Source: Ignavibacteria bacterium RIFOXYB12_FULL_35_14
Lineage (GTDB): Bacteria; Bacteroidota; Ignavibacteria; Ignavibacteriales; Ignavibacteriaceae
Direction of reading: 5' to 3'
NCBI GenBank assembly: GCA_001803045.1
Contig: MHAR01000012.1
Span: 1 to 64,000 of the forward strand
Length of the DNA: 64,000 bases
Part shown: piece after piece, positions 4,385 through 45,239 of the stretch
Numbering within the stretch: the stretch's first letter is position 1
How the letters are laid out: every line of letters starts with the position of its first letter
The notes under the pieces: generated by a model
What the model was told of the DNA's origin: nothing
The model's database searches: none
What the model saw: only the letters and a program-made list of their open reading frames with translations
Program-made: the position numbers and the translations under genes

Positions 4385-4852
4385 AATAGAACATGGATTG
4401 AACAGATTAAACAGATAAGAACGGATTTTAATGCAATTTAAACATCAGGAATTGACTGAACTTATTATTAAAGCTTTTTATAATGTTTATAATTCATTGG
4501 GATATGGATTTTTAGAGAAGGTTTATGAGAATTCAATGTTGATTGAATTGAAATCTTTAGGATTAAATTGTGAAAAGCAGAAACCGATATCTGTTTTTTA
4601 TAAAAATTTGAACGTCGGTGAATACTTTGCAGATATAATTGTTGAGAACAAAGTTATTATTGAATTAAAAGCGGCAGAAGGAATAATTGAGGAACATGAA
4701 GCGCAGTTATTGAATTATTTAAAAGCCACTGATATAGAAGTTGGATTGTTATTCAATTTTGGCAAGCAACCACAATTCAAAAGACAAATTTTCGAAAATG
4801 AATACAAAAAATCTGTTCAAATCCGTTCGATCAGTTGAATCCGTGTTCTATT
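4385..4852. mobile_element. GxxExxY cargo element with GAT-phased inverted arms
   Basis: Inverted arms of about 46 nt (4385-4430 and 4806-4852) enclose the GxxExxY gene. In the left arm GAT occurs at 4396, 4405, 4414 and 4424, a spacing of 9, 9, 10. In the right arm ATC occurs at 4811, 4821, 4830 and 4839, the exact mirror. Both outer ends begin with AATAGAAC. The left arm ends right before the gene's ATG, and the right arm encodes its last nine residues. I infer a mobile or formerly mobile unit; no target duplication is evident. Confidence 0.7.
4431..4838 (+). CDS. GxxExxY protein (PD-(D/E)XK nuclease-like)
   Basis: A 135-residue member of the GxxExxY family, assigned to the PD-(D/E)XK nuclease superfamily. 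The naming motif is Gly26-Phe-Leu-Glu29-Lys-Val-Tyr32. The likely catalytic set is Glu29, Asp68 (YFADIIV), and Glu78 and Lys80 (IIELKA). No biochemical role is established. A second copy lies at 63376-63762. The C-terminal residues KSVQIRSIS are read from the right inverted arm of the enclosing element, so the repeat and the gene end are fused. There is no clear ribosome site; translation starts 5 nt after the arm. The element context suggests a mobile gene, possibly a nuclease acting on the palindromic arms (inference). Confidence 0.85.
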   Translation: MQFKHQELTELIIKAFYNVYNSLGYGFLEKVYENSMLIELKSLGLNCEKQKPISVFYKNLNVGEYFADIIVENKVIIELKAAEGIIEEHEAQLLNYLKATDIEVGLLFNFGKQPQFKRQIFENEYKKSVQIRSIS

Positions 4853-6717: not shown

Positions 6718-7004
6718 AATCTAAATCTTTTAAGATTACTTGTTCACCCGAATCATTAAAACAAATTAAGAAGATTAAGAAATCTGAATCCCAGGCTGAA
6801 GTTGACTTGTATTTTGCTCGAATCAAAGAATTGATAGAAAATATACAAGACTTCCCTTTTACCGGAATTGGTAAACCGGAACCACTTAAACACAGAATTC
6901 CTCCATGCTGGTCACGAAGAATAAATTTAGAAGATCGTTTGATTTACCGTATTTCGAAAAACGAAATACAAATAATTTCCATCCTTGAACACTACAATAA
7001 ATGA
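6714..7004 (+). CDS. YoeB/Txe-family ribosome-dependent mRNA endonuclease toxin
   Basis: 96-residue toxin of the RelE/YoeB fold that cleaves mRNA at the ribosomal A site. The family signature GIGKPEPLKH (51-60), WSRRI (66-70), DRLIYRI (74-80) and the C-terminal His93-Tyr94 are all present. Glu56, Arg68/Arg69 and His93 are the expected catalytic residues. It is translationally coupled to the antitoxin gene. The pair sits between the PrpD-like and citrate lyase genes and is the only TA module I recognise in the window. Confidence 0.92.
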   Translation: MKSKSFKITCSPESLKQIKKIKKSESQAEVDLYFARIKELIENIQDFPFTGIGKPEPLKHRIPPCWSRRINLEDRLIYRISKNEIQIISILEHYNK

Positions 7005-7047
7005 TCATAAATGACTTCCAATAATCAAATTATCATAATAATTTCTT

Positions 7048-8289
7048 ATGCGAAACATGAATCAAAAAAATAACATATCCTGCGCCGGCAAACGAGGCGA
7101 TCAAATTCGCTCGGACTGCTATATCGAATTAGAACTTAAACGTTCCGGCGGTATAAAAATAGAGATGAAAAGCAAAGTCGAATCAATGTATGGTGATTCG
7201 ATTATAGCGCAGCTTACCGAGATGTGCAGGTTTTTCAACATCAACCATGTTGAGATTCTTGTCGAGGATGCTGGTGCCCTGCCGTTTACGCTGGCAGCAA
7301 GATTTGAACTTGCAGTTAAAAGATTGCTCCCAGACTTGGATAAGGAATTTCTTCTTCCAATGATCGATAAAAATTATTCTTCTACAACTAAGGAAAGATT
7401 GCGTAGAAGCAGATTATATCTTCCTGGAAATGAGCCAAAGTTTTTTGTGAACGCTGGTTTACATTCTCCCGATGGGATTATTCTTGATCTTGAAGACAGT
7501 GTTGCACATTCTGAAAAGGATGCTGCGCAGCTCCTTGTACGAAATGCATTGCGCTCTGTTGATTTTTACGGTGCTGAAAGAATGGTTCGCATTAATCAAA
7601 TGCCGTTAGGTTTGAATGATCTAAAATTTATCGTTCCCCACTTTGTTAATGTCATTCTAATTCCTAAATGCGAATCTGCCGTTCAAATAACTGAGATTGA
7701 ACAGGAAGTACATCGCTTGAAAAGATTACACAAAATGAAATCCGCCTCTAGCGGAGATATCTACTTCATGCCGATTCTTGAAAGCGCGTTAGGAATCATG
7801 AAAGCTTATGAAATAGCAACAGCATCACGACACAATTGTGCGCTGGCAATCGGACTTGAAGATTATACTGCAGATTTAGGAACTCAAAGAACAAACGAAG
7901 GTCGCGAGAGTTTCTTCGCCCGCTCAATGGTAATTAATGCTGCAAAAGCCGCAGGCATTCAAGCTATCGATACTGTTTTCTCTGATGTTGCAGACATGGA
8001 AGGGTTGCGGGAAAGTGTAATCGAAGCAAAATCTTTAGGATTTGAAGGTAAAGGATGTATTCATCCACGGCAAGTACAAGTTGTGCACGAAGCGTTTGCG
8101 CCAACTTTGGAAGAAATCGAGAAAGCTAAGAAGATTGTTCTGGCTTTTGAAGAAGCGGAAAGCAAGGGATTGGGTGTCGTTTCAATTGGTACCAAGATGA
8201 TTGATGCTCCAGTTGTAAAACGCGCACAGAGAACAATTGATTTGGCAATAATGAACAACATCATTTCTAAAAACTGGAAAATAGAATAG
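7048..8289 (+). CDS. Citrate lyase acyl-carrier/beta-subunit fusion (CitD-CitE like)
   Basis: 413 residues with two parts. Residues about 12-90 resemble the acyl-carrier protein CitD: VESMYGD (44-50) and DAGALPFTLAARFE match its conserved core. Residues from about 120 form the HpcH/HpaI-CitE lyase barrel, with RLYLPGN, ILDLEDS, PILESALG and GLEDYTADLG motifs for acyl-CoA and Mg2+ binding. In classical citrate lyase these are separate subunits. The CitD serine that carries the phosphoribosyl-dephospho-CoA arm aligns near Ser22 (IRSDC), shifted by one residue, so carrier function is uncertain. CitF follows downstream. Citramalate or citramalyl-CoA cleavage is an alternative. A 15-bp palindrome (7741-7755) is read in frame. 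Confidence 0.82.
   Translation: MRNMNQKNNISCAGKRGDQIRSDCYIELELKRSGGIKIEMKSKVESMYGDSIIAQLTEMCRFFNINHVEILVEDAGALPFTLAARFELAVKRLLPDLDKEFLLPMIDKNYSSTTKERLRRSRLYLPGNEPKFFVNAGLHSPDGIILDLEDSVAHSEKDAAQLLVRNALRSVDFYGAERMVRINQMPLGLNDLKFIVPHFVNVILIPKCESAVQITEIEQEVHRLKRLHKMKSASSGDIYFMPILESALGIMKAYEIATASRHNCALAIGLEDYTADLGTQRTNEGRESFFARSMVINAAKAAGIQAIDTVFSDVADMEGLRESVIEAKSLGFEGKGCIHPRQVQVVHEAFAPTLEEIEKAKKIVLAFEEAESKGLGVVSIGTKMIDAPVVKRAQRTIDLAIMNNIISKNWKIE
7741..7755. repeat. Palindromic mini-repeat inside the CitE coding region
   Basis: TCCGC-CTCTA-GCGGA is a perfect 5-bp stem with a 5-nt loop. It is read in frame as Ser-Ala-Ser-Ser-Gly in a loop before the PILESALG strand. A near copy (tccgcctctggagga) sits in the intergenic element at 6327-6341, which suggests insertion of a small repeat into coding sequence. 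Confidence 0.5.
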
Positions 8290-9989: not shown

Positions 9990-10192
9990 TACACACCCCT
10001 TTCGGGGGTGACCAAAAATTAATTATTCAATAAAAAAATCTTCGAAAATCGTTTAAAATCAGCGTCATCAGTGCCTGCCACTATGTGGTTCCATTCAAAG
10101 ATAAATGTTACTTTTTGGTCAACCTCCTGTCGGCTTTAAATATTTAATTGGTCTACGACGCATCCCCTCTGGAGAGGGGCGAGGGGTGTGTT
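9990..10192. repeat. Composite nested palindromic element, copy A
   Basis: The whole gap is a nested inverted repeat. Outer ends are ACACACCCC and AGGGGTGTGT. Inside, TGACCAAAAA (10009) faces TTACTTTTTGGTCA (10108-10121). Inside that lies one arm of the GAT class with ATC spacing 10, 10, 9. A further small hairpin CCCCTC-TGGA-GAGGGG lies at 10164-10179. The 10009-10121 core is repeated in reverse orientation at 62074-62171. No gene is present. Confidence 0.7.
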
Positions 10193-10241
10193 AGTAATTT
10201 GGATCACATAAAAATCTGTAATCAACCGAAGTAATTTGCTA

Positions 10242-27641: not shown

Positions 27642-27766
27642 TAGGGAACAGCCTCCTGGCTGTTCCGCCGTTTGCGTACCTGTCTTAGGAATTTTCATAA
27701 GATGATCCTCCGGACTCAGTCGGTTTATGCCCATAACGGCGGAATGACCAGGAGGTCATTCCCTAC
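27641..27766. repeat. REP pair, left of the RAYT gene
   Basis: Two hairpins in inverted orientation: stem GGAACAGCC with loop TCCT (27645-27666), and stem GGAATGACC with loop AGGA (27741-27762). The outer ends GTAGGG and CCCTAC pair, and inner CCGCCGTT pairs with AACGGCGG, so the whole unit can fold as one cruciform. Stop codons of the M16 partner gene and of the RAYT gene fall in its two ends. Confidence 0.9.
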
Positions 27767-28260
27767 AGATTTAAATTCTCAGGCAAATCCTTTTCTAATT
27801 CCCAATTCAGCGGGTTCAACTGCATATAATTTCTAATCAGAAATAACTCTCTTTCATCTCTAATTATTCTATCGTAAAAAGATTTTTGCCAATGAAATTT
27901 TTCGCTCCCAGCTAATGACTCATTAATTTTTTTTGTTGTAAAAGTTTTAAATCGTTGTATGATAGTCGATAGACTTTTCTTTTGAACATTACCCGGCTTA
28001 TTATCAAGTATAACTATGCCATGAATATGATCGGGCATAATTATGAATTCATCTAATTCACATGGATAATATTTTGGTAGATTCTTCCAAATTTCTTCTA
28101 CAATTCTACCCTTTTCAGTTAGTATAGACTTCTCGTTAATTATTTCTGAAAAGAATTCTTTTCGATTCTCCATGCAAAGGGTAACGAAATAATAAAAACT
28201 ATTGGAATAATCGAATTCTTTTAATCTTAATCTTTTTCGTTGTGTTAAGTTGGCTGCCAT
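27763..28260 (-). CDS. REP-associated tyrosine transposase (RAYT, TnpA-REP)
   Basis: 165-residue HUH single-strand endonuclease of the Y1 transposase group. The HUH motif is His78-Ile-His80 in MPDHIHGIV and the nucleophile is probably Tyr129 in FHWQKSFYDRIIRDE. The first strand SFYYFVTLC is typical. Proteins of this group nick REP hairpins and are thought to have spread them. It is flanked on both sides by matching REP pairs, as in known RAYT loci. Its TAG stop is supplied by the left REP pair. No frameshift or missing motif, so it is probably functional. Confidence 0.95.
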   Translation of the reverse strand: MAANLTQRKRLRLKEFDYSNSFYYFVTLCMENRKEFFSEIINEKSILTEKGRIVEEIWKNLPKYYPCELDEFIIMPDHIHGIVILDNKPGNVQKKSLSTIIQRFKTFTTKKINESLAGSEKFHWQKSFYDRIIRDERELFLIRNYMQLNPLNWELEKDLPENLNL

Positions 28261-29116: not shown

Positions 29117-29335
29117 TTTATGCATTCTCTTCAAATTGTTAAAACACTACTTTTAACTTATCTATTTTTCTTGTTGATTTCCACAAAGGAAATCACAATT
29201 TTAACTGAGGAGATAAACCATTTCTTTAGAGTATTTTGAAGCAGGATGCTACAAATGAACAAAGAAGATGGTGTTGGTGAGGTGAGAAGTTAGGAGTTGG
29301 GTGTTTGAATAATCAATGAAAAAATGTCAAACAAC

Positions 29336-29416
29336 ATATACCAGGCAACAGCCCACTTGCTCTTCTTTGGTTGGAATGATATCAAGCAATTTGGCGGGCA
29401 ACTAATAGTTATATGC
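29336..29416. other. attC-like imperfect palindrome (left border of gene pair)
   Basis: CATATA...GCCC at 29336-29355 faces GGGC...TATATG at 29397-29416, two paired blocks on each side separated by spacers of similar length, as in integron attC sites. The right end GTTATATG resembles a recombination box GTTRRRY only in part. No integrase is near. I treat it as a candidate cassette border. Confidence 0.35.
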
Positions 29417-29426
29417 ACGTATAAAA

Positions 29427-29999
29427 ATGAATCAAAAATTTGAAAATGAAATAAAAATTGTTGAGAAGTACTATCATCATTTGTATAACCAAGATAATAT
29501 TTTGCATCAAATACGTTCTTTTAAAATTTTGCATGGGGGCGGCTTTAGATACGAAAGTAAAGGAAAGGAGTCAGTTAGCCCAATAAAAGAATTATCTATG
29601 GAAATATTTTATAAATATGAAGAAGTAAGAGATTTTGAATTAGAATCATTCTGTCAAAAACTCAATGAGATGGTTATTAACAGACTAGGTCAAATTCAGA
29701 AAATGATGTATAGTGAAATTATAAGCGCAACTGAATTAACTGGGAATAAAGTCGATGCAAAAGGTGCAAAAATGAATCCTGATCTAATTTTAGATATGTT
29801 AGAAAAAATAGAAATCAGATTTAATGAAGATGATGAACCTATACTACCTCAATTACATTTAGCTCCACAGCAATTCAACAAAATTAAAGATATGAAATTT
29901 ACACCTGAGCAAGAAAAGAGACAGCAAGAGATTATAGATAATAAAAGAAAAAAATGGTATGCTAAAAAACGTTATAGAAAATTATCTTATCTCGATTAA
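29427..29999 (+). CDS. Unrecognised protein, first of an overlapping pair
   Basis: 190 residues that I cannot assign. It looks mainly helical and strongly charged, with HGGGFRYESKGK near residue 36 and a very basic tail (NKRKKWYAKKRYRKLSYLD). No signal peptide or membrane helix. The last 41 nt overlap the start of the next gene, so the two are almost certainly expressed together. Base use is even more AT-rich than its neighbours, which with the palindromic borders suggests transfer. A partner or antitoxin-like role for the nuclease-like neighbour is conceivable but not shown. Confidence 0.7.
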   Translation: MNQKFENEIKIVEKYYHHLYNQDNILHQIRSFKILHGGGFRYESKGKESVSPIKELSMEIFYKYEEVRDFELESFCQKLNEMVINRLGQIQKMMYSEIISATELTGNKVDAKGAKMNPDLILDMLEKIEIRFNEDDEPILPQLHLAPQQFNKIKDMKFTPEQEKRQQEIIDNKRKKWYAKKRYRKLSYLD

Positions 30000-31494
30000 A
30001 GAAGTCCAATTTTTCGCTCCTTTCAAAGTTCTTCTGGAAAATATGGATTTTTTTGATATTCATTTAATTCATGGTCCAACTGAATTTGGCAAAGATTTCA
30101 TAGCAAAGAAAAATATTGATGATCACATTATTCAATATTGCTTTCAGATAAAAGTTGGTGATATAAATCTAGCTAAATTTATGAATGAAATTAAACCCCA
30201 GTTGCTAGAAATCATTACGAATAAAATATCTCATCCGAATTTTGATCCTAAATTAACTCAAGAAATAATTTTCGTTACAACTGGAACACTTAAACCCCCT
30301 GCAACAATTTCTTTTCAAAAGTTCAACTCTTATGCTCAAAAAACATTTAATATCAATCCCATTTTAACTTGGGAAAAGGATAAACTTCTGAGAGATTTCA
30401 CTCAAATTGGGATTGAACCATTTTTTGAACTTCACAATTCCCCAGAGTTTGTGAGTAGATTTTTTGATTTATTCGCAAAGGTTAAAAAACAATATGAATT
30501 TACAACATTTGATATTGTAAGCTACACAGATTATTGGCTTTCTCTCGATCTTTCTATACATGAAAATAAATTACAAGTATTATTTGAAGGTTATTTCTTT
30601 TCCAAATTATTTCTAGATATAAAGGATTATTATAACTCTGTATTATTTTTGGCTTCTTTAGCTCGTGTTCTAATTAAAAATAAATTGTTTGAGGAGTTTA
30701 GTGAGTTTCTTACCAGTTCTATTCTTGATTCAATAACTTCTTTTTATGTTGATTATTCATCAAAAAATGATACAGAGAAGAAAAATTATTTTATTAGCAA
30801 AGGGATTTTTTCTATTTTAGTCTACCCCAGCGTCTGCCTTAAATCATTAGAACTATTTGCACTTTATATATTATTGACAGAAGAAAATCACGATCCAATA
30901 ATAAGTACTTTTTTTGAACTACTTAAGGAAAAAGGAGCGTACCGTCCAATAAGTGATAATTTTGGTAATGCGATAATATTTATTTCTTTAGTGCTGATAA
31001 AACTGAATAAAGAAGACTTGTTAAAGAAATATCTTATAAATATTACCGTATGGTTGTGTGATCGATACGAACAAAATGGTATAGCTCCTATTGGATACAA
31101 ACCAGATGAGGAATATGAACAGATAATATCCGAATATCTAAGTGGACTCACCTTTCACGAACGTAAAACTAGTTTTATAGCATCAATTATTTTAGATATT
31201 TGTTTTTATTTAGGCGACGATAAATTGTATTCAGATATCGCTAATGATTTTCGTGCAGTAGAAATTATCCCAGAATATTTTCACGTCAATGAGATTGACC
31301 AATTGTTTGATTATGATAAAATAGTTACTCAAACTGATCATGATTTTTCATTAGAATTAAAAACTGATTTTGCAGAATATGTAAAATATCGTGATGCTAA
31401 ATTTAATATCACTCTGCAAAAACAAGAGGCTCTTTTATTGATGTTTCAGCTAAAAGATAGATATTTCCCCAAGATTATTTGGGAATTAATTTAA
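29959..31494 (+). CDS. Putative nuclease-like protein with large helical C-terminus
   Basis: 511 residues, function unknown. Residues about 31-100 show a possible PD-(D/E)XK pattern of the Mrr type: Glu42 and Asp46 in GPTEFGKDF, then Gln63-Ile-Lys65 in CFQIKVGD. The remaining 400 residues are alpha-helical with many Phe, Leu and Lys and no motif I know. The ATG lies within the end of the preceding gene. Together they form a compact two-gene unit bordered by attC-like palindromes, typical of accessory or defence cargo. The nuclease call is inference from spacing of a few residues. Confidence 0.6.
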   Translation: MLKNVIENYLISIKEVQFFAPFKVLLENMDFFDIHLIHGPTEFGKDFIAKKNIDDHIIQYCFQIKVGDINLAKFMNEIKPQLLEIITNKISHPNFDPKLTQEIIFVTTGTLKPPATISFQKFNSYAQKTFNINPILTWEKDKLLRDFTQIGIEPFFELHNSPEFVSRFFDLFAKVKKQYEFTTFDIVSYTDYWLSLDLSIHENKLQVLFEGYFFSKLFLDIKDYYNSVLFLASLARVLIKNKLFEEFSEFLTSSILDSITSFYVDYSSKNDTEKKNYFISKGIFSILVYPSVCLKSLELFALYILLTEENHDPIISTFFELLKEKGAYRPISDNFGNAIIFISLVLIKLNKEDLLKKYLINITVWLCDRYEQNGIAPIGYKPDEEYEQIISEYLSGLTFHERKTSFIASIILDICFYLGDDKLYSDIANDFRAVEIIPEYFHVNEIDQLFDYDKIVTQTDHDFSLELKTDFAEYVKYRDAKFNITLQKQEALLLMFQLKDRYFPKIIWELI

Positions 31495-31517
31495 AAGTGA
31501 ATATGACAAGTGTCTCA

Positions 31518-31575
31518 AACGGAATGCTTCTTTCGCATTTTGCATTTGTGCAGTTTAAAAGTTTGTTCTTCCGTT
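31518..31575. other. Inverted repeat downstream of the gene pair
   Basis: AACGGAA (31518-31524) and TTCCGTT (31569-31575) are perfect inverted 7-mers 44 nt apart, 24 nt after the second gene's stop. It may be part of a cassette end or a terminator; no T-tract follows directly. Confidence 0.3.
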
Positions 31576-31615
31576 ACAGTTTTTTGTCCAGCATAGTTTG
31601 TAAATGAAATTTTGT

Positions 31616-31678
31616 TATTTAATAAATGTGGCATTGTCGTTTTGGGCTACGGCTTAAGCACAACGCCGTTAATAAATA
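31616..31678. other. attC-like imperfect palindrome (right border of gene pair)
   Basis: TATTTA and GGCATTGT on the left pair with ACAACGCC and TAATAAATA on the right in mirrored order, around a centre containing GGGCTACGGCTTAAG. The two-block stem resembles integron attC sites, although the end GTTAATA does not fit GTTRRRY exactly. With the palindrome at 29336-29416 it brackets the two unknown genes. Confidence 0.35.
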
Positions 31679-38598: not shown

Positions 38599-39046
38599 GT
38601 TTTTCCCAGTTTCTGTTTTTAAGTGAAGGTAAACTCTTGAGTAAATATTCTAAAATTTGCTTCGGAAAATTAAACAATTATTCTCTAAAAATGGTTTAAT
38701 AAGCTATAGATCAGGAGAAGATTCTGATTAAGAGATTCAATTCTTTTTCTTTTGATTAAGTTTGAATGGAAATTTTGTTAAAATTATTCACCCAAAACCG
38801 ATTATCTATACTTTGAGGAAAGCGAGAATCAAAACGGTGTAGGAGAATAATTCCAGTAGAGGCATCTATTTCATTATTTGAATCAAAATATTTTGGGTGT
38901 TACTTACTCAAAAGAATTTTTAGCGCTTATTTCTGGGAGATAAAGATGAAATAGATAATGCAAAAGAAAATTTAATCAGAGAAATAGAAAAAGATTAAAC
39001 AAAACACTATTTTAGTTCAATTATTCTTGATTAGATGGAGTTTGAT
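38599..39046. other. 448-nt gap before dinD with a possible gene remnant
   Basis: The gap holds the promoter region of gcvP (left) and dinD (right). A short open stretch ending LGDKDEIDNAKENLIREIEKD and a stop (about 38932-38999) has no start and looks like the tail of a lost gene. The first copy of a 29-bp direct repeat lies at 38907-38935. Confidence 0.4.
38907..38935 (+). repeat. Direct repeat, copy 1, left of dinD
   Basis: 29 nt beginning CTCAAAAGAATTTTTAGC. It matches 26 of 29 positions of the copy at 40064-40092 in the same orientation. The two copies bracket dinD and its terminator. Confidence 0.6.
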
Positions 39047-39895
39047 ATGAAAAAAGAATTAATTGCTGAACTTTTTCAAAAATTTGAAAACGCTTGTTAT
39101 CTCTTGGAAGGAGTGGAATGTTGGAGTGCGAGAGAGTTGCAAGAAATATTTGATTATTCTGAATGGCGTAACTTTCTAAAGGTTATTGACAAAGCAAAAG
39201 ACTCTTGTAAAAATAGTGGTGAATCAGTTCCAGACCATTTTGTTGATATCAACAAAATGGTAGTGTTGGGCAGTGGTGCAGAAAGAAAAATTGATGATAT
39301 CGCCCTAACAAGATACGCCTGCTATCTTGTTGCTCAAAATGGTGATCCAGCAAAACCTGAAGTTGCTTTTGCACAAACCTATTTTGCTGTTCAGACCCGT
39401 AAACAAGAAATAATTGAAAAAAGACTGCTCGATGTTGCACGCGTAACTGCAAGAGAAAAACTTTCTCACTCTGAAAAGAAACTTTCCGGAATTATCTATG
39501 AAAGAGGTGTTGACGAAAAAGGTTTTGCTATTATCCGTTCTAAAGGAGATCAAGCGCTTTTTGGTGGACTAAATACCCAAATGATGAAAAGTAAATTAGA
39601 TGTTGCGGATGGACGACCTCTTGCTGACTTTTTACCTACACTTACTATTAAAACGAAAGACTTTGCATCCGAGCTTACGAGCCATAATGTAATTGAAAAA
39701 GATCTTCACGGACACGAAAAGATTTCTGAAGAACACGTTGATAATAATCTTGCAGTTAGAAAAATTCTTAAAGAACGCGGGGTGCAGCCGGAAAATCTTC
39801 CTCCCGCCGAAGATGTTAAAAAAATTGAGAGACGGCTTAAAGGTGATGAGAAGAAAATTCTGATAGAAGTGAAGAAAACAAAAAAGAAAAAGTAA
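39047..39895 (+). CDS. dinD: DNA damage-inducible protein D (DinD family)
   Basis: 282-residue homologue of E. coli DinD, which binds RecA filaments and inhibits strand exchange. The N-terminal domain has the BRO-like segment CWSARELQEIFDYSEWRNF and DIALTRYACYLVAQNGDP; the C-terminal part has KLSGIIYERGVDEKGFAIIRSKGDQALF and ends in a Lys-rich tail. GGAG lies 6 nt before this ATG, so I prefer it to the ATG four codons earlier. Genes of this family often sit beside restriction systems, as here. A hairpin terminator follows. No LexA site is claimed because the local SOS box is unknown. Confidence 0.9.
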   Translation: MKKELIAELFQKFENACYLLEGVECWSARELQEIFDYSEWRNFLKVIDKAKDSCKNSGESVPDHFVDINKMVVLGSGAERKIDDIALTRYACYLVAQNGDPAKPEVAFAQTYFAVQTRKQEIIEKRLLDVARVTAREKLSHSEKKLSGIIYERGVDEKGFAIIRSKGDQALFGGLNTQMMKSKLDVADGRPLADFLPTLTIKTKDFASELTSHNVIEKDLHGHEKISEEHVDNNLAVRKILKERGVQPENLPPAEDVKKIERRLKGDEKKILIEVKKTKKKK

Positions 39896-40034
39896 ATTAG
39901 AAATTGCTTATGAACCACAAACCCAAATTAGAACTCATCTGGATTGGCCAAGACAAGCAGCCCAAACTAAAACTGCGTATTTTAATTTGAACAAATGAAT
40001 TTTTGTAATTGATTTATACCATGAAATAATATCA

Positions 40035-40056
40035 GGGAGCTTCGGCTCCCTTTTAT
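40035..40056 (+). terminator. Intrinsic terminator after dinD
   Basis: GGGAGC-TTCG-GCTCCC, a perfect 6-bp stem with the stable UUCG tetraloop, followed by TTTTATTATTTTA. This is the clearest rho-independent terminator in the window. Confidence 0.85.
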
Positions 40057-40063
40057 TATTTTA

Positions 40064-40092
40064 TTCAAAAGAATTTTTATCGATTATTTCTG
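40064..40092 (+). repeat. Direct repeat, copy 2, right of dinD
   Basis: 29 nt beginning TTCAAAAGAATTTTTATC, 26 of 29 identical to copy 1. The rest of the gap up to 40254 is AT-rich with no gene seen. Confidence 0.6.
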
Positions 40093-40254
40093 TTGGACAA
40101 GGAAGGACATTTTCTGTTTTTTACTTAGGGAAGTATAGTTGTCTGAATTGAAGGATATGAATATGTGTCAGAAAAATTTAGTCTTAATGAGCATAATTAT
40201 TTATTTTGATGCATGTGTTTATGAGGTTTTGTACAACACTTAAAATAGGACTTA

Positions 40255-43200
40255 ATGTCTAGAATTTTAATAAATCAGTATTACACCAATCTTGAACGTG
40301 CCAAGCACTTCGGCAAATCCACAAACGAACAATCTATACGCAATCACTTCTGGAACTTGCTTAATGAATACGCTCATAAACAAAACTATGAAGTAGTTAC
40401 TGAAGTTTCATGCCAGGGCACTAAAGGAAGTAAGGTTCGTCCCGATGGAATTGTCAAAAATTTATTTGGATTGGACATTGGTCTTTGGGAAAGCAAAGAT
40501 GAAAAAGATACAATTAACGATGAGATAGATACCAAGCAAAAAAAAGGTTATCCGTTCTATAATATTCTGTTTGAAGATTCAAAAGAAGCAGTTCTTTTTC
40601 AACGCGGTGAAGAAGTTATGCGCGGTTTTGTTCTTAATCCTGATGAACTGCATAAAATCATTACAGAGTTTATTTCTTTCAAGAGCGATACTGTTTACAA
40701 GTTTGAAGATGCATTAGAAAAATTTAAGGCTGATATTCCTGCAATTGTAGAAACGCTCCGTAAACGTATTGATCAAACCCGTGTAAGGAATAAAAACTTT
40801 ATTGCTGTTAGCGCAACTTTCCTTGAACTGTGTAAGATCGAAATAAATCCAGATATAACCGAAGCTGATATTCGCGAAATGATGATTCAGCATATTCTCA
40901 CAAGCGACATTTTTAACAAAATATTTGATGACCCCGAATTTCACCGACACAATAATATTGCTCGTGAACTCGAAAAACTTATTGAGATTCTTTTTACTTA
41001 CAGTGAACGTAAAAACCTGATGGGCAATATCGAGCATTATTACGATGCTATCAATAGCACCGCTGCCGGTATTGTCGATCATCACGAAAAACAAAAGTTC
41101 TTGAAAGTTCTTTACGAAAACTTTTACAAAGTATATAATCCCAAAGCTGCTGATCGTCTTGGTGTAATTTACACGCCTAACGAAATTGTAAACTTTATGA
41201 TTGAAGGCATCGAGTATTTACTACACAAACATTTTGGTAAAACGCTTTCTGATAAAAATGTAGATATACTCGATCCTGCAACAGGAACAGCTACTTTTGT
41301 TACTTCTATTATTGATCACATTCCAAATCAGGATTTACTTTACAAGTACAAGAATGAAATCCACGCAAACGAAGTTGCAATACTTCCATACTACATTGCT
41401 AATCTAAATATTGAATTTACATTTAAGCAAAAGATGGGTTATTACGAAGAGTTTAAGAACCTTTGCTTTGTTGATACACTTGATAACACCAATGCACTTC
41501 TTTACAGCGGAAAACAGGAAACAATGTTTGGTTTAAGTTCTGAAAACTCAGAACGTATCAAACAGCAGAACAGTAAAAAGATTTCTGTAGTTATTGGTAA
41601 TCCTCCGTACAATGCAAATCAACAAAATGAAAATGAGAATAATAAGAACAGAGAATATCCATACATCGATAAGCGTATTAAAGATACTTATATAAAGTAC
41701 AGCACTGCACAAAAGACAAAAGTATATGATATGTATGCAAGATTTTTAAGATGGGCTTTTGATAGGGTTGATAAAAATGGCATTGTCGCATTTGTAAGTA
41801 ATAATTCATTTATAAATTCTCGTACTTATGATGGATTTAGAAAAATCGTTGCTGAAGAGTTTAATGAAATATGGATTATTGATCTTAAAGGAAATGCCAG
41901 AACAAGTGGTGAAAGACGCAGAGCCGAAGGTGGTAATGTATTTTCAGATTTAATCAGAGTTGGTGTCGCTGTCTATTTCTTAGTTAAAAAAGAAAATGAA
42001 TCAGGCTGTAATATTTTTTATAATGAGATAAAAGATTACGCAAAAGCTGAAGAGAAGAAAGAATATCTTCACGCTAATAAACTTAAAACACTTCCGTTTC
42101 AAAAGATTACTCCAGATAAAAATAATAATTGGATAAATCTTGCTGATAATGATTTTGAAAGATTAGTAGCTCTTGCAGATAATGATGTGAAGCGTGGAAA
42201 TAAATCTGAAGCTGTCTTTAAATTATTTTCAAATGGAATTGTTACAGCAAGAGATGAATGGACATTTGATTTAAATAAAGAATCACTTCATCAAAAAGCC
42301 AAATATTTTTGTGATTTTTATAAAAAAGAAAAATCAAGATGGTTAAAATCTGATAAACAAAAACCAATTAATGATTTTGTTGATAGAACTATCAAATGGA
42401 CTGAAGAATTAGAATCTCATCTACAAAAAGGTTCTAAATTAGAATTTGCAGAAAGTAAAATTAGAAATTCACTTTACAGACCTTTTATATCTCAGTTCAC
42501 TTATTTTGATAGGATCATAACTCATCGTGTTTATCAAAATGAAATAATATTTGGTATCGAAGATGAGTTTAAGAATAAAGTGATTTGGTTTTCAGGGATC
42601 GCAGGTTCAAAAGCATTTCAAACATTAGCATCAACAAAAGTTGCAAGTTTCGATTTACTTGAAAAGACACAATGTCTTCCACTATACCGTTATGATTCAA
42701 ACGGAAATCGAATAGACAACATAACCGATTGGGGATTAGAACAATTTGTTAATCACTACAAAGACAAAAAGATTAAGAAAGAGGACATCTTCCATTATGT
42801 TTACGCAGTACTTCACAATCCGGCTTACAGAAAGAAATACGAATTAAATCTAAAGCGGGAGTTTCCTCGTATTCCTTTCTATAAAGATTTTTGGCAATGG
42901 GCAAAATGGGGCAAACAATTAATGGAATTACACATAAATTACGAAAAAGCAAAACCATTTAACCTAAAACTCATCAAAAGTGAAACAAAGCAAGCTCATA
43001 CTAAACAAAAAGAAATGTTCAGCAAAGTCGAAGAACCTGAAACGCTTTACGCACACAAACCAATAATAAAAGTCAAACTCAAGGCCGATAAGCTTGCCGG
43101 GGTAATAGAAATTGATGAACTAACTTTATTGAAAGGAATCCCCAAACAAGCGTGGGAATACAAACTCGGTAACCGCAGTGCTATCGAATGGATACTAGAC

Positions 43201-43362
43201 CAGTACAAAGAAAAGAAACCAAAAGATTCAACTATCGCAGAAAATTTTAACACCTATCGCTTTACAGATTATAAGGAAGATGTGATTTACCTGTTAAAGA
43301 AAATCACAACCATTAGCGTAGAAACAATGAGGATAATTAATGAAATGGAAAAAGAGAAATAA
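40255..43362 (+). CDS. Single-chain restriction-modification enzyme (type ISP/IIG-like)
   Basis: 1035 residues combining nuclease and adenine methylase. The N-terminal PD-(D/E)XK site is Asp64 (RPDG), Glu79 and Lys81 (WESKD). A helical linker (about 110-310) leads to the N6-adenine methylase: motif I DPATGTATF at 340-348 and motif IV NPPY at 449-452. The C-terminal half is a target-recognition region resembling the LlaBIII-type specificity domain. I see no helicase motifs between nuclease and methylase, so it is shorter than true type ISP enzymes and closer to type IIG. It should protect the host by methylating its own sites. It belongs to the defence island with dinD and the GmrSD-like gene. 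Confidence 0.88.
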   Translation: MSRILINQYYTNLERAKHFGKSTNEQSIRNHFWNLLNEYAHKQNYEVVTEVSCQGTKGSKVRPDGIVKNLFGLDIGLWESKDEKDTINDEIDTKQKKGYPFYNILFEDSKEAVLFQRGEEVMRGFVLNPDELHKIITEFISFKSDTVYKFEDALEKFKADIPAIVETLRKRIDQTRVRNKNFIAVSATFLELCKIEINPDITEADIREMMIQHILTSDIFNKIFDDPEFHRHNNIARELEKLIEILFTYSERKNLMGNIEHYYDAINSTAAGIVDHHEKQKFLKVLYENFYKVYNPKAADRLGVIYTPNEIVNFMIEGIEYLLHKHFGKTLSDKNVDILDPATGTATFVTSIIDHIPNQDLLYKYKNEIHANEVAILPYYIANLNIEFTFKQKMGYYEEFKNLCFVDTLDNTNALLYSGKQETMFGLSSENSERIKQQNSKKISVVIGNPPYNANQQNENENNKNREYPYIDKRIKDTYIKYSTAQKTKVYDMYARFLRWAFDRVDKNGIVAFVSNNSFINSRTYDGFRKIVAEEFNEIWIIDLKGNARTSGERRRAEGGNVFSDLIRVGVAVYFLVKKENESGCNIFYNEIKDYAKAEEKKEYLHANKLKTLPFQKITPDKNNNWINLADNDFERLVALADNDVKRGNKSEAVFKLFSNGIVTARDEWTFDLNKESLHQKAKYFCDFYKKEKSRWLKSDKQKPINDFVDRTIKWTEELESHLQKGSKLEFAESKIRNSLYRPFISQFTYFDRIITHRVYQNEIIFGIEDEFKNKVIWFSGIAGSKAFQTLASTKVASFDLLEKTQCLPLYRYDSNGNRIDNITDWGLEQFVNHYKDKKIKKEDIFHYVYAVLHNPAYRKKYELNLKREFPRIPFYKDFWQWAKWGKQLMELHINYEKAKPFNLKLIKSETKQAHTKQKEMFSKVEEPETLYAHKPIIKVKLKADKLAGVIEIDELTLLKGIPKQAWEYKLGNRSAIEWILDQYKEKKPKDSTIAENFNTYRFTDYKEDVIYLLKKITTISVETMRIINEMEKEK

Positions 43363-43442
43363 TAAACACAACTTAAAATTGTATTAAAAAACTCACCACT
43401 AATAAAGCGATAGCCGTAAAATCAAAAAAGAAATGGGTGTTT

Positions 43443-45239
43443 ATGAAAACACAAAAATATTCTGTTAATCAGCATTTAATTGAAACAATCCTTGCCTGGG
43501 TTAAATCCGGTGAAATTGCCATTCCTGAAATTCAGCGGCCTTTTGTTTGGGATACTTCCAAAGTTCGTGATCTTATGGATTCCCTCTACCAAGGTTATCC
43601 TATCGGGTACCTTATTGCATGGAAAAATCCAAACGTTAGATTAAAAGATGGTCATAGTGCTGAAGGTAAAAAAATTCTTATCGATGGACAGCAGCGTGTT
43701 ACAGCTTTAACTGCTGCTATTCTCGGTCAAAAGATTATTAACAAAGAGTATAAAAGAACCAGAATTAAAATTTCTTTTCAGCCTATTGAGGAACGTTTCG
43801 AGGTTTTTAATACTGCAATCGAAAAAGATAGTCACTGGTTTCCCGATATTTCAATTTTATTCCAACCAGAAACAAATCTTTTTACGGTAGTAAATGATTA
43901 CTGCTCTAAAAATCCAGAAGTATCTCAAGAACTCATTTTTAATCGCTTCGATCTGCTCAAAAAATTAATTACGAAACAAATCGGTCTAATTGATCTTGAT
44001 TCCGATCTTGATATTGAAGTAGTAACTGAAATTTTTATTCGTATAAATTCTCAAGGTGTAGTACTAAGTCAGGCCGATTTTGCTATGTCTAAGATCGCTT
44101 CCAATGAACTTTATAATGGTTCGATAATTCGGAAAAGTATAGATTATTTTTGCCACCTTGCAGTTGCACCGGAGTTCTATAATATAATTTCGGAAATTGA
44201 TACTGAATTTTCTGTAAGCGAGTATTTTAAAAAAATGTCTTGGCTTAAAGAAGAGAATGATGATATCTATGATCCCGATTATACTGACCTTCTGCGAGTT
44301 GCATTTACCTCTGAGTTTAATCGCGGTCGTCTTTCTGATTTAGTAAGTCTCCTCTCAGGTAGAAATTTTGAAACAAGAAGTTTTGAAGATGTAATTGCAA
44401 AACAATCTTTTGAAAAACTAGAAAATGGCATCCTAAATTTTATTAATGAAACAAATTTTAAACGATTTGTGATGATCATTCGTGCTGCTGGATTTGTATC
44501 TTCTTCTCTTATTCGTTCTCAAAACGCACTAAATTTCGCTTACATAGTTTACCTCAAACTCAGAGCACTAAACTACAATCAAGCTGAAATTGGAAGCTAC
44601 GTGCGAAGATGGTTTGTTATGTCAGTCCTAACAGGACGCTATTCCGGTTCACCTGAATCCGTATTTGATTTCGATATTAAAAATATTTCCTCCAAACCAT
44701 TCAAAGAGTTTCTACAGAATGTGGAATCAGCAGAACTTTCAGAAGCTTTTTGGGATTTTTCGTTAGTCCAAAGTCTCGACACTTCCGTTTCAAGCAGTCC
44801 ATTTTTCAATGTTTATCTTGCTTCACAAGTTCGATCAAATGATAAGGGGTTTTTATCTCGTGATATTTCTATTGATGATCTTATAACTCATATGGGGGAT
44901 ATTCATCATGTTTTTCCCAAAGAATATCTCAAACGAAATGGTTTAAAAAGATCTAATTACAATCAGATTGCAAACTACGTCTATATGCAATCCGAAATAA
45001 ATATTAAGATTGGTAGCAAATCCCCTAAAGATTATTTTGCTGAGTTACTCAAACAATGTAACGGTTCAAAATTAAAATACGGTTCTATAGATAAATTAGA
45101 AATGTTAGAAAAAAACCTTAAAGAGAATTGTATACCAAAGTCAATCTTTGAAATGGATTTCAATAATTATGAGCAATTTTTGAATGAAAGAAGGAAGCTT
45201 ATCTCAATGAAAATTCGAGACTATTATTTCAATCTATAA
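43443..45239 (+). CDS. GmrSD-type type IV restriction protein (DUF262-DUF1524 fusion)
   Basis: 598-residue fusion of a DUF262 NTPase-like domain and a DUF1524 HNH nuclease domain, the arrangement of GmrSD and BrxU enzymes that cut modified phage DNA. DUF262 motifs are [11 protein letters not shown] (27-37) and DGQQRVTAL (81-89). The HNH-like end has HHVFPKEYL from about residue 488, followed by an Asn-rich segment (NYNQIANYV). The ATG is preferred over a GTG two codons earlier. It lies 80 nt after the restriction-modification gene in the same direction, so the two may be coexpressed: one acts on unmodified, the other on modified DNA. Confidence 0.9.

Follow-up and report, generated by a model that had tools for sequence, protein, structure and literature searches.

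The window analysed here, a stretch of 64,000 nucleotides from Ignavibacteria bacterium RIFOXYB12_FULL_35_14 (NCBI GenBank assembly GCA_001803045.1, contig MHAR01000012.1, positions 1 to 64,000 of the forward strand), contains two overlapping genes, and the question raised by this locus is whether they form a mobile defence or conflict system, as a first-pass annotation made from the sequence alone had suggested. An ORF check returned two reading frames of 190 and 511 residues with a 41-nt overlap, exactly as given in that annotation, and the pair is described by the following features:

29427..29999, + strand: small partner protein gene, 190 aa, no known family (ORF; upstream of the large gene in 15/15 loci)
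29959..31494, + strand: large protein gene, 511 aa, predicted Mrr-like PD-(D/E)XK nuclease plus TPR-like helical solenoid (ORF, alignments, AlphaFold2, Foldseek, Mrr_cat, OloB N-terminal similarity)
29959..29999, + strand: overlap of both genes, 41 nt (seen in every locus, in the same relative phase)

Each of the 15 loci examined has the pair; they represent several bacterial phyla and include a Rhodococcus plasmid and one archaeal MAG that is doubtful. When 84,980 species genomes were scanned, relatives of the pair turned up at 12 loci (Bacteroidetes, Balneolales/Balneolaceae, Fodinibius, Desulforapulum, Anaerolineae, two Acidobacteria, Verrucomicrobia, Roseomonas, and a Nanoarchaeota MAG), and further relatives were found on the Rhodococcus plasmid (L014) and in genome G333 (locus L042); among the loci, L020 duplicates L010 (Fodinibius) and L022 duplicates L011 (Balneolales). 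On the contig binned as Nanoarchaeota (L023), whose bin assignment may be wrong, the pair is accompanied by a gyrase-A-like gene and a MvaI/BcnI restriction system. The small gene, an ORF of 190-207 aa, lies upstream of the large ORF and overlaps it at each locus, with both frames intact. The tabulated overlap is 26-41 nt long and always 2 mod 3, its exact length being approximate in the GC-rich loci L014, L026, and L027 because it is uncertain there at which codon the large gene starts. In the alignments the family splits into two subfamilies: the window belongs to one of them, and L022-L027 to the other.

Within the 395 genomes of the window's phylum, full-length relatives of the large protein are present in four (about 1%, the window's own genome counted), and a profile of the small gene finds an intact copy in the same four; no full-length relative was found in the other sampled members of the window's own family, close relatives included. 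A short small-gene match in G339, broken by stops, was discounted, and large-protein matches in G154, G219, and G009 were set aside as N-terminal only, with the solenoid not covered. Across the 15 loci, pairwise distances between the small proteins track those between the large ones (r = 0.91, a value that none of 10,000 permutations reached), and the correlation holds inside each subfamily too; it shows long joint inheritance rather than physical interaction, because linked genes share their history anyway. The annotation had also noted a lack of known homologues, which is correct for named families (none covers the small protein or the pair) and incorrect for uncharacterised homologues, which occur in many phyla. 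The pair has no match in INPHARED phages and no relative in IMG/VR or PHROGs, and a phage origin was rejected on these grounds. No description of this pair or architecture was found in the literature searched.

The large protein is divided into two predicted domains:

29959..30378, + strand: predicted nuclease domain, residues 1-140, with invariant E15, E42, K45, D46, Q63, and K65 (alignments, AlphaFold2, Foldseek)
30442..31257, + strand: helical solenoid, TPR-like, residues about 162-433 (AlphaFold2 helices; Foldseek TPR matches with low TM-scores)

The E-x3-D...QxK pattern that had been likened to Mrr-type nucleases is present at the quoted positions as E42-FGK-D46 and Q63-I-K65, and residues E15, H38, E42, K45, D46, Q63, K65, and P93 are identical in 15/15 aligned loci; given this invariance, the E42/D46/Q63/K65 pattern is taken not to be a chance occurrence. 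An AlphaFold2 model built from 13 sequences (pLDDT 84, pTM 0.86) folds residues 15-107 as alpha-beta-beta-beta-alpha-beta, followed by helices to the C-terminus, with strands at 47-53 and 56-65; D46 enters strand 2, and Q63 and K65 lie on strand 3. The best PDB fold match in Foldseek is MspJI (E 8.2e-3, probability 1.00), and FokI also matches (probability 1.00 and 0.99). No PDB match reached E 0.001, and since the Foldseek E-values exceed this value the assignment to the PD-(D/E)XK fold rests on topology and motifs. The Pfam Mrr_cat family (PF04471) is matched at E 0.1 or better by 5 of 13 aligned members; the window's protein scores 13.1 bits, under the curated cut-off of 21, and two relatives exceed that cut-off with 21.1 and 22.8 bits. 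A PD-(D/E)XK-type core is thus predicted from the AlphaFold2 topology, the Foldseek matches to MspJI and FokI, and the Mrr_cat scores above cut-off in two relatives. On these models, the large protein is most likely a Mrr/MspJI-type PD-(D/E)XK nuclease with E15, D46, Q63, and K65 as residues of active-site type.

The long C-terminus, described in the annotation as all helical, is modelled as such. It has no convincing family, and in Foldseek it matches the TPR domains of KLC1, KLC2, and LGN, plus Get4, with low TM-scores. Pfam finds no modified-base-recognition (SRA-like) domain in the large protein, whose C-terminus is instead the helical solenoid, and a central P-loop NTPase is absent, with no ATPase match in Pfam and no such region in the AlphaFold2 model.

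The small protein was modelled with moderate confidence (pLDDT 79, pTM 0.60) as a helical protein with beta-hairpins, in the order N-terminal helix, beta-hairpin, 34-residue helix, second hairpin, and C-terminal helix. The second hairpin surrounds a conserved FDEDGxPxLP segment, and the C-terminal helix ends in a conserved K-(K/R)...R-(K/R)-(L/M). It has no family match in Pfam, PADLOC, NCBIfam, or PHROGs and no fold match in the PDB or BFVD (viral folds); an isolated sequence match to a PDB acetyltransferase was seen at E 0.0039. A capsid-like fold, an idea drawn from the order of helices and hairpins, was rejected on the lack of PDB and BFVD matches. The protein had been called basic, which is true of the window member (pI 8.4) and not of its relatives (pI 5.0-7.8).

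The borders of the pair, previously noted as mobile-looking, can now be specified as attC-like integron sites, as follows:

29331..29416, + strand: upstream attC-like site (sequence; weak), R' box GTTATATGC at 29408-29416, 10 nt before the small-gene ATG
31500..31674, + strand: attC-like site directly after the large-gene stop, R' box GTTAATA at 31668-31674 (nhmmer profile and alignment)
29409..31668, + strand: inferred integron cassette with the gene pair, 2,260 bp (two R' boxes, nhmmer match; region replaced in G296 and G132)

Just past the large gene, the sequence is similar to repeats of about 200 nt that lie between small ORFs in other parts of this genome. Two of these repeats bear complementary boxes, with GTTATGTAGC before the intervening ORF and GCTACATAAC following it. 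An nhmmer profile was built from four of these attC-like repeats with the window left out, and it gives a single match in the window (31502-31671, 61 bits, E 3.5e-18), the best of 30 shuffled control windows scoring 7.7 bits. The window's R' sequence GTTATATGCAC is complementary at 9/11 positions, by eye, to GTGAATATGAC after the large gene, a correspondence missed by an ungapped inverted-match test. Folding of the upstream site is no better than that of shuffles, and hairpin z-scores are not significant (-0.01 and -0.07 in the window, -1.3 for a repeat elsewhere in the genome), so the attC call in the window rests on similarity in sequence to arrays of the same genome. No integron integrase lies beside the window; integron integrase genes (TIGR02249, above cut-off) are present on two other contigs (C11, 310 bits; C51, 280 bits), both partial and at contig edges. 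Exact complementary boxes of 12-13 nt flank the pair in L020, L022, and L024, and in L024 two attC copies of about 90 nt surround it, the first directly after an AbiGi gene. The gene pair therefore seems to travel as an integron gene cassette. The window's own copy has probably decayed and is probably no longer mobile, because its boxes are imperfect and its hairpin energies unremarkable.

The insertion site points the same way. In the window the pair is flanked by genes for a PIG-L-type deacetylase and an amidohydrolase; the place between these two genes is taken by genes for a methyltransferase and a 139-aa protein in the same-genus genome G296, and by a gene for a secreted-type protein in G132. 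A little upstream, at 27763-28260, an IS200-like Y1 transposase gene of the REP-associated type lies between the M16 peptidase and PIG-L genes, which are separated by almost nothing in G296.

Known or candidate defence genes are found near 8 of the 15 loci, a raw count given without a background rate. The pair stands beside a type III R-M system and a TIR protein (L016), BREX BrxC (L022), a type II R-M system with a MvaI/BcnI nuclease (L023), and AbiGi (L024), near an OLD nuclease and a HamB-like helicase on the Rhodococcus plasmid (L014), and near the PADLOC candidate families PDC-M18A (L042) and PDC-S15 (L021). In the window, PDC-S13, a type IIG R-M enzyme, and an HEC-05-like protein are encoded 8-14 kb downstream. 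Prophage-like DNA is the setting in L018, where the pair adjoins phage head genes. L019 and L025-L027 have no evident defence neighbours, and in L019 and L027 the pair is near housekeeping genes. Overall, the homologues are not in fixed housekeeping contexts; many of them lie among defence neighbours, in prophage-like DNA, on a plasmid, or between attC sites, and the site is variable among close relatives. Separately, window positions 39035-45239 form a probable defence cluster, in which a DinD-like gene (PDC-S13) is joined by the type IIG restriction-methyltransferase and by a protein of 600 aa with matches to HEC-05 models. On the Rhodococcus plasmid (L014, 11713-16046), a 281-aa gene without a family match comes after the pair, along with the gene for the HamB-like helicase, and this is possibly a divergent Hachiman system.

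Probably the two genes form a bacterial module for immunity or conflict that has so far not been described. Our preferred reading, to which we assign a probability of roughly 55%, is that it is a mobile two-gene nuclease conflict module, most likely directed against phages or plasmids, in which the small protein regulates the nuclease. The large protein would be the effector, cutting DNA with its N-terminal nuclease, and the TPR-like solenoid would serve to bind either a trigger, in the form of a protein or peptide, or the small partner. The small co-inherited protein would serve as a dedicated regulator, keeping the nuclease inactive, or licensing it, until infection; we propose that it is made first and in a coupled amount, because its gene overlaps the start of the effector gene. 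At the window locus the pair would have arrived as an integron gene cassette. The proposal of a candidate defence or conflict system is supported computationally by the patchy, mobile distribution and by the defence neighbours, and neither of the outcomes named beforehand as refuting it (a structure lacking a PD-(D/E)XK core, or homologues in fixed housekeeping contexts) was seen.

The order of the two genes, with a small upstream gene overlapping a downstream candidate toxin gene, also fits an antitoxin-first toxin-antitoxin pair carried on an integron cassette, as do the strict co-inheritance of both genes and the cassette borders around them; the small protein would be the antitoxin, and the nuclease a toxin that cuts host DNA, the main role of the pair being to stabilise the cassette array. 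Toxin-antitoxin pairs are abundant in chromosomal integrons. We nevertheless consider this unlikely, since typical type II toxins are far smaller than a 511-aa effector of two domains, one of them a solenoid, since no antitoxin DNA-binding fold can be recognised in the small protein, and since defence genes are frequent among the neighbours. MspJI as best PDB fold match, together with the Mrr_cat similarity, would suit a restriction-type enzyme (type IV, MspJI/Mrr-like) directly recognising foreign or modified DNA with the small protein as its DNA-recognition or specificity subunit. That the MspJI match is limited to the nuclease core, that Pfam shows no modified-base-reading domain, and that the C-terminus is like protein-binding TPR solenoids and unlike DNA-recognition domains make such an enzyme improbable here.

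A housekeeping or DNA-repair nuclease pair without a conflict role would account for those loci (L019, L027) that lie near housekeeping genes. It is very hard to reconcile with a pair that occurs in about 1% of the phylum's genomes and is absent from all sampled close relatives, whose insertion site is variable, and of which copies lie on a plasmid, within prophage-like DNA, and among the cassettes of integron arrays. The mobile conflict module preferred above can be given a more specific form, offered tentatively as a serious possibility: an undescribed two-gene immune system, widely scattered, whose small protein would have a new fold and control a Mrr-type nuclease that has its own TPR-like sensor and no NTPase, and which would have spread between phyla partly as integron cassettes.

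Among known systems, Olokun is the nearest in the effector. OloB (PADLOC PDLC03926) matches residues 5-143 of the large protein at E 2.3e-9 and is matched by 4 of 13 family members at E 0.1 or better, the effectors are of similar length (511 residues here, 556 in OloB), and both systems have two genes. The match is, however, limited to the nuclease-side domain, and in place of OloA, which has about 596 residues, the present system has an unrelated partner of 190 aa; a search of the window's own genome gave no OloA match at E 1 or better. Membership in Olokun was rejected on the domain-limited match and the absence of OloA. A further OloB match, in L015, was set aside for its different architecture. 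With Mrr/MspJI-type PD-(D/E)XK enzymes the large protein shares the D-x16-Q-x-K pattern, a helix glutamate, and the modelled alpha-beta-beta-beta-alpha-beta core, but here the nuclease is fused to a TPR-like solenoid rather than to a modified-base reader or winged helix, has a constant small partner, and in the window member falls under the Pfam cut-off. Avs/STAND-type defence proteins have an N-terminal nuclease and a C-terminal TPR-like sensor. The large protein is similar in having a nuclease effector at one end and a helical-repeat solenoid at the other; it differs in lacking the central NTPase, in place of which there is a second small protein. Judged on sequence, the pair is a putative two-gene nuclease-effector conflict module outside Olokun, with a novel partner and an apparent integron route of spread.

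If this reading is true, a compact candidate immune system would be added for which Pfam, NCBIfam, PHROGs, and PADLOC have no such two-gene family, and a nuclease-solenoid effector would be tied to a small protein that matches no known fold. The whole module of about 2.1 kb is readily synthesised and tested. Integrons store anti-phage genes, many of them missed by annotation tools, according to work cited in PMC12444791 (Darracq 2025; Getz 2025; Kieffer 2025). The integron-borne defence cassettes of that work resemble the present case in that a candidate defence module is an attC-flanked cassette, and differ from it in that the module here has two genes and occurs in the window's phylum and in Balneolota-type genomes; the idea of integrons as defence stores would, if the reading is true, be extended to lineages whose cassettes are little studied. 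In Fodinibius (L020), repeats like the pair's upstream flank occur beside other small ORFs at 4588-4723, about 6950-7063, and 10145-10221, likely a cassette array. The window's own genome has two cassette arrays without an adjacent integrase (L067, 3856-6826, on contig 12 at about 99-102 kb; L068, 3053-4876, on contig 21), which consist of attC-like sites of about 200 nt and single-ORF cassettes, one of them encoding an HNH-type protein.
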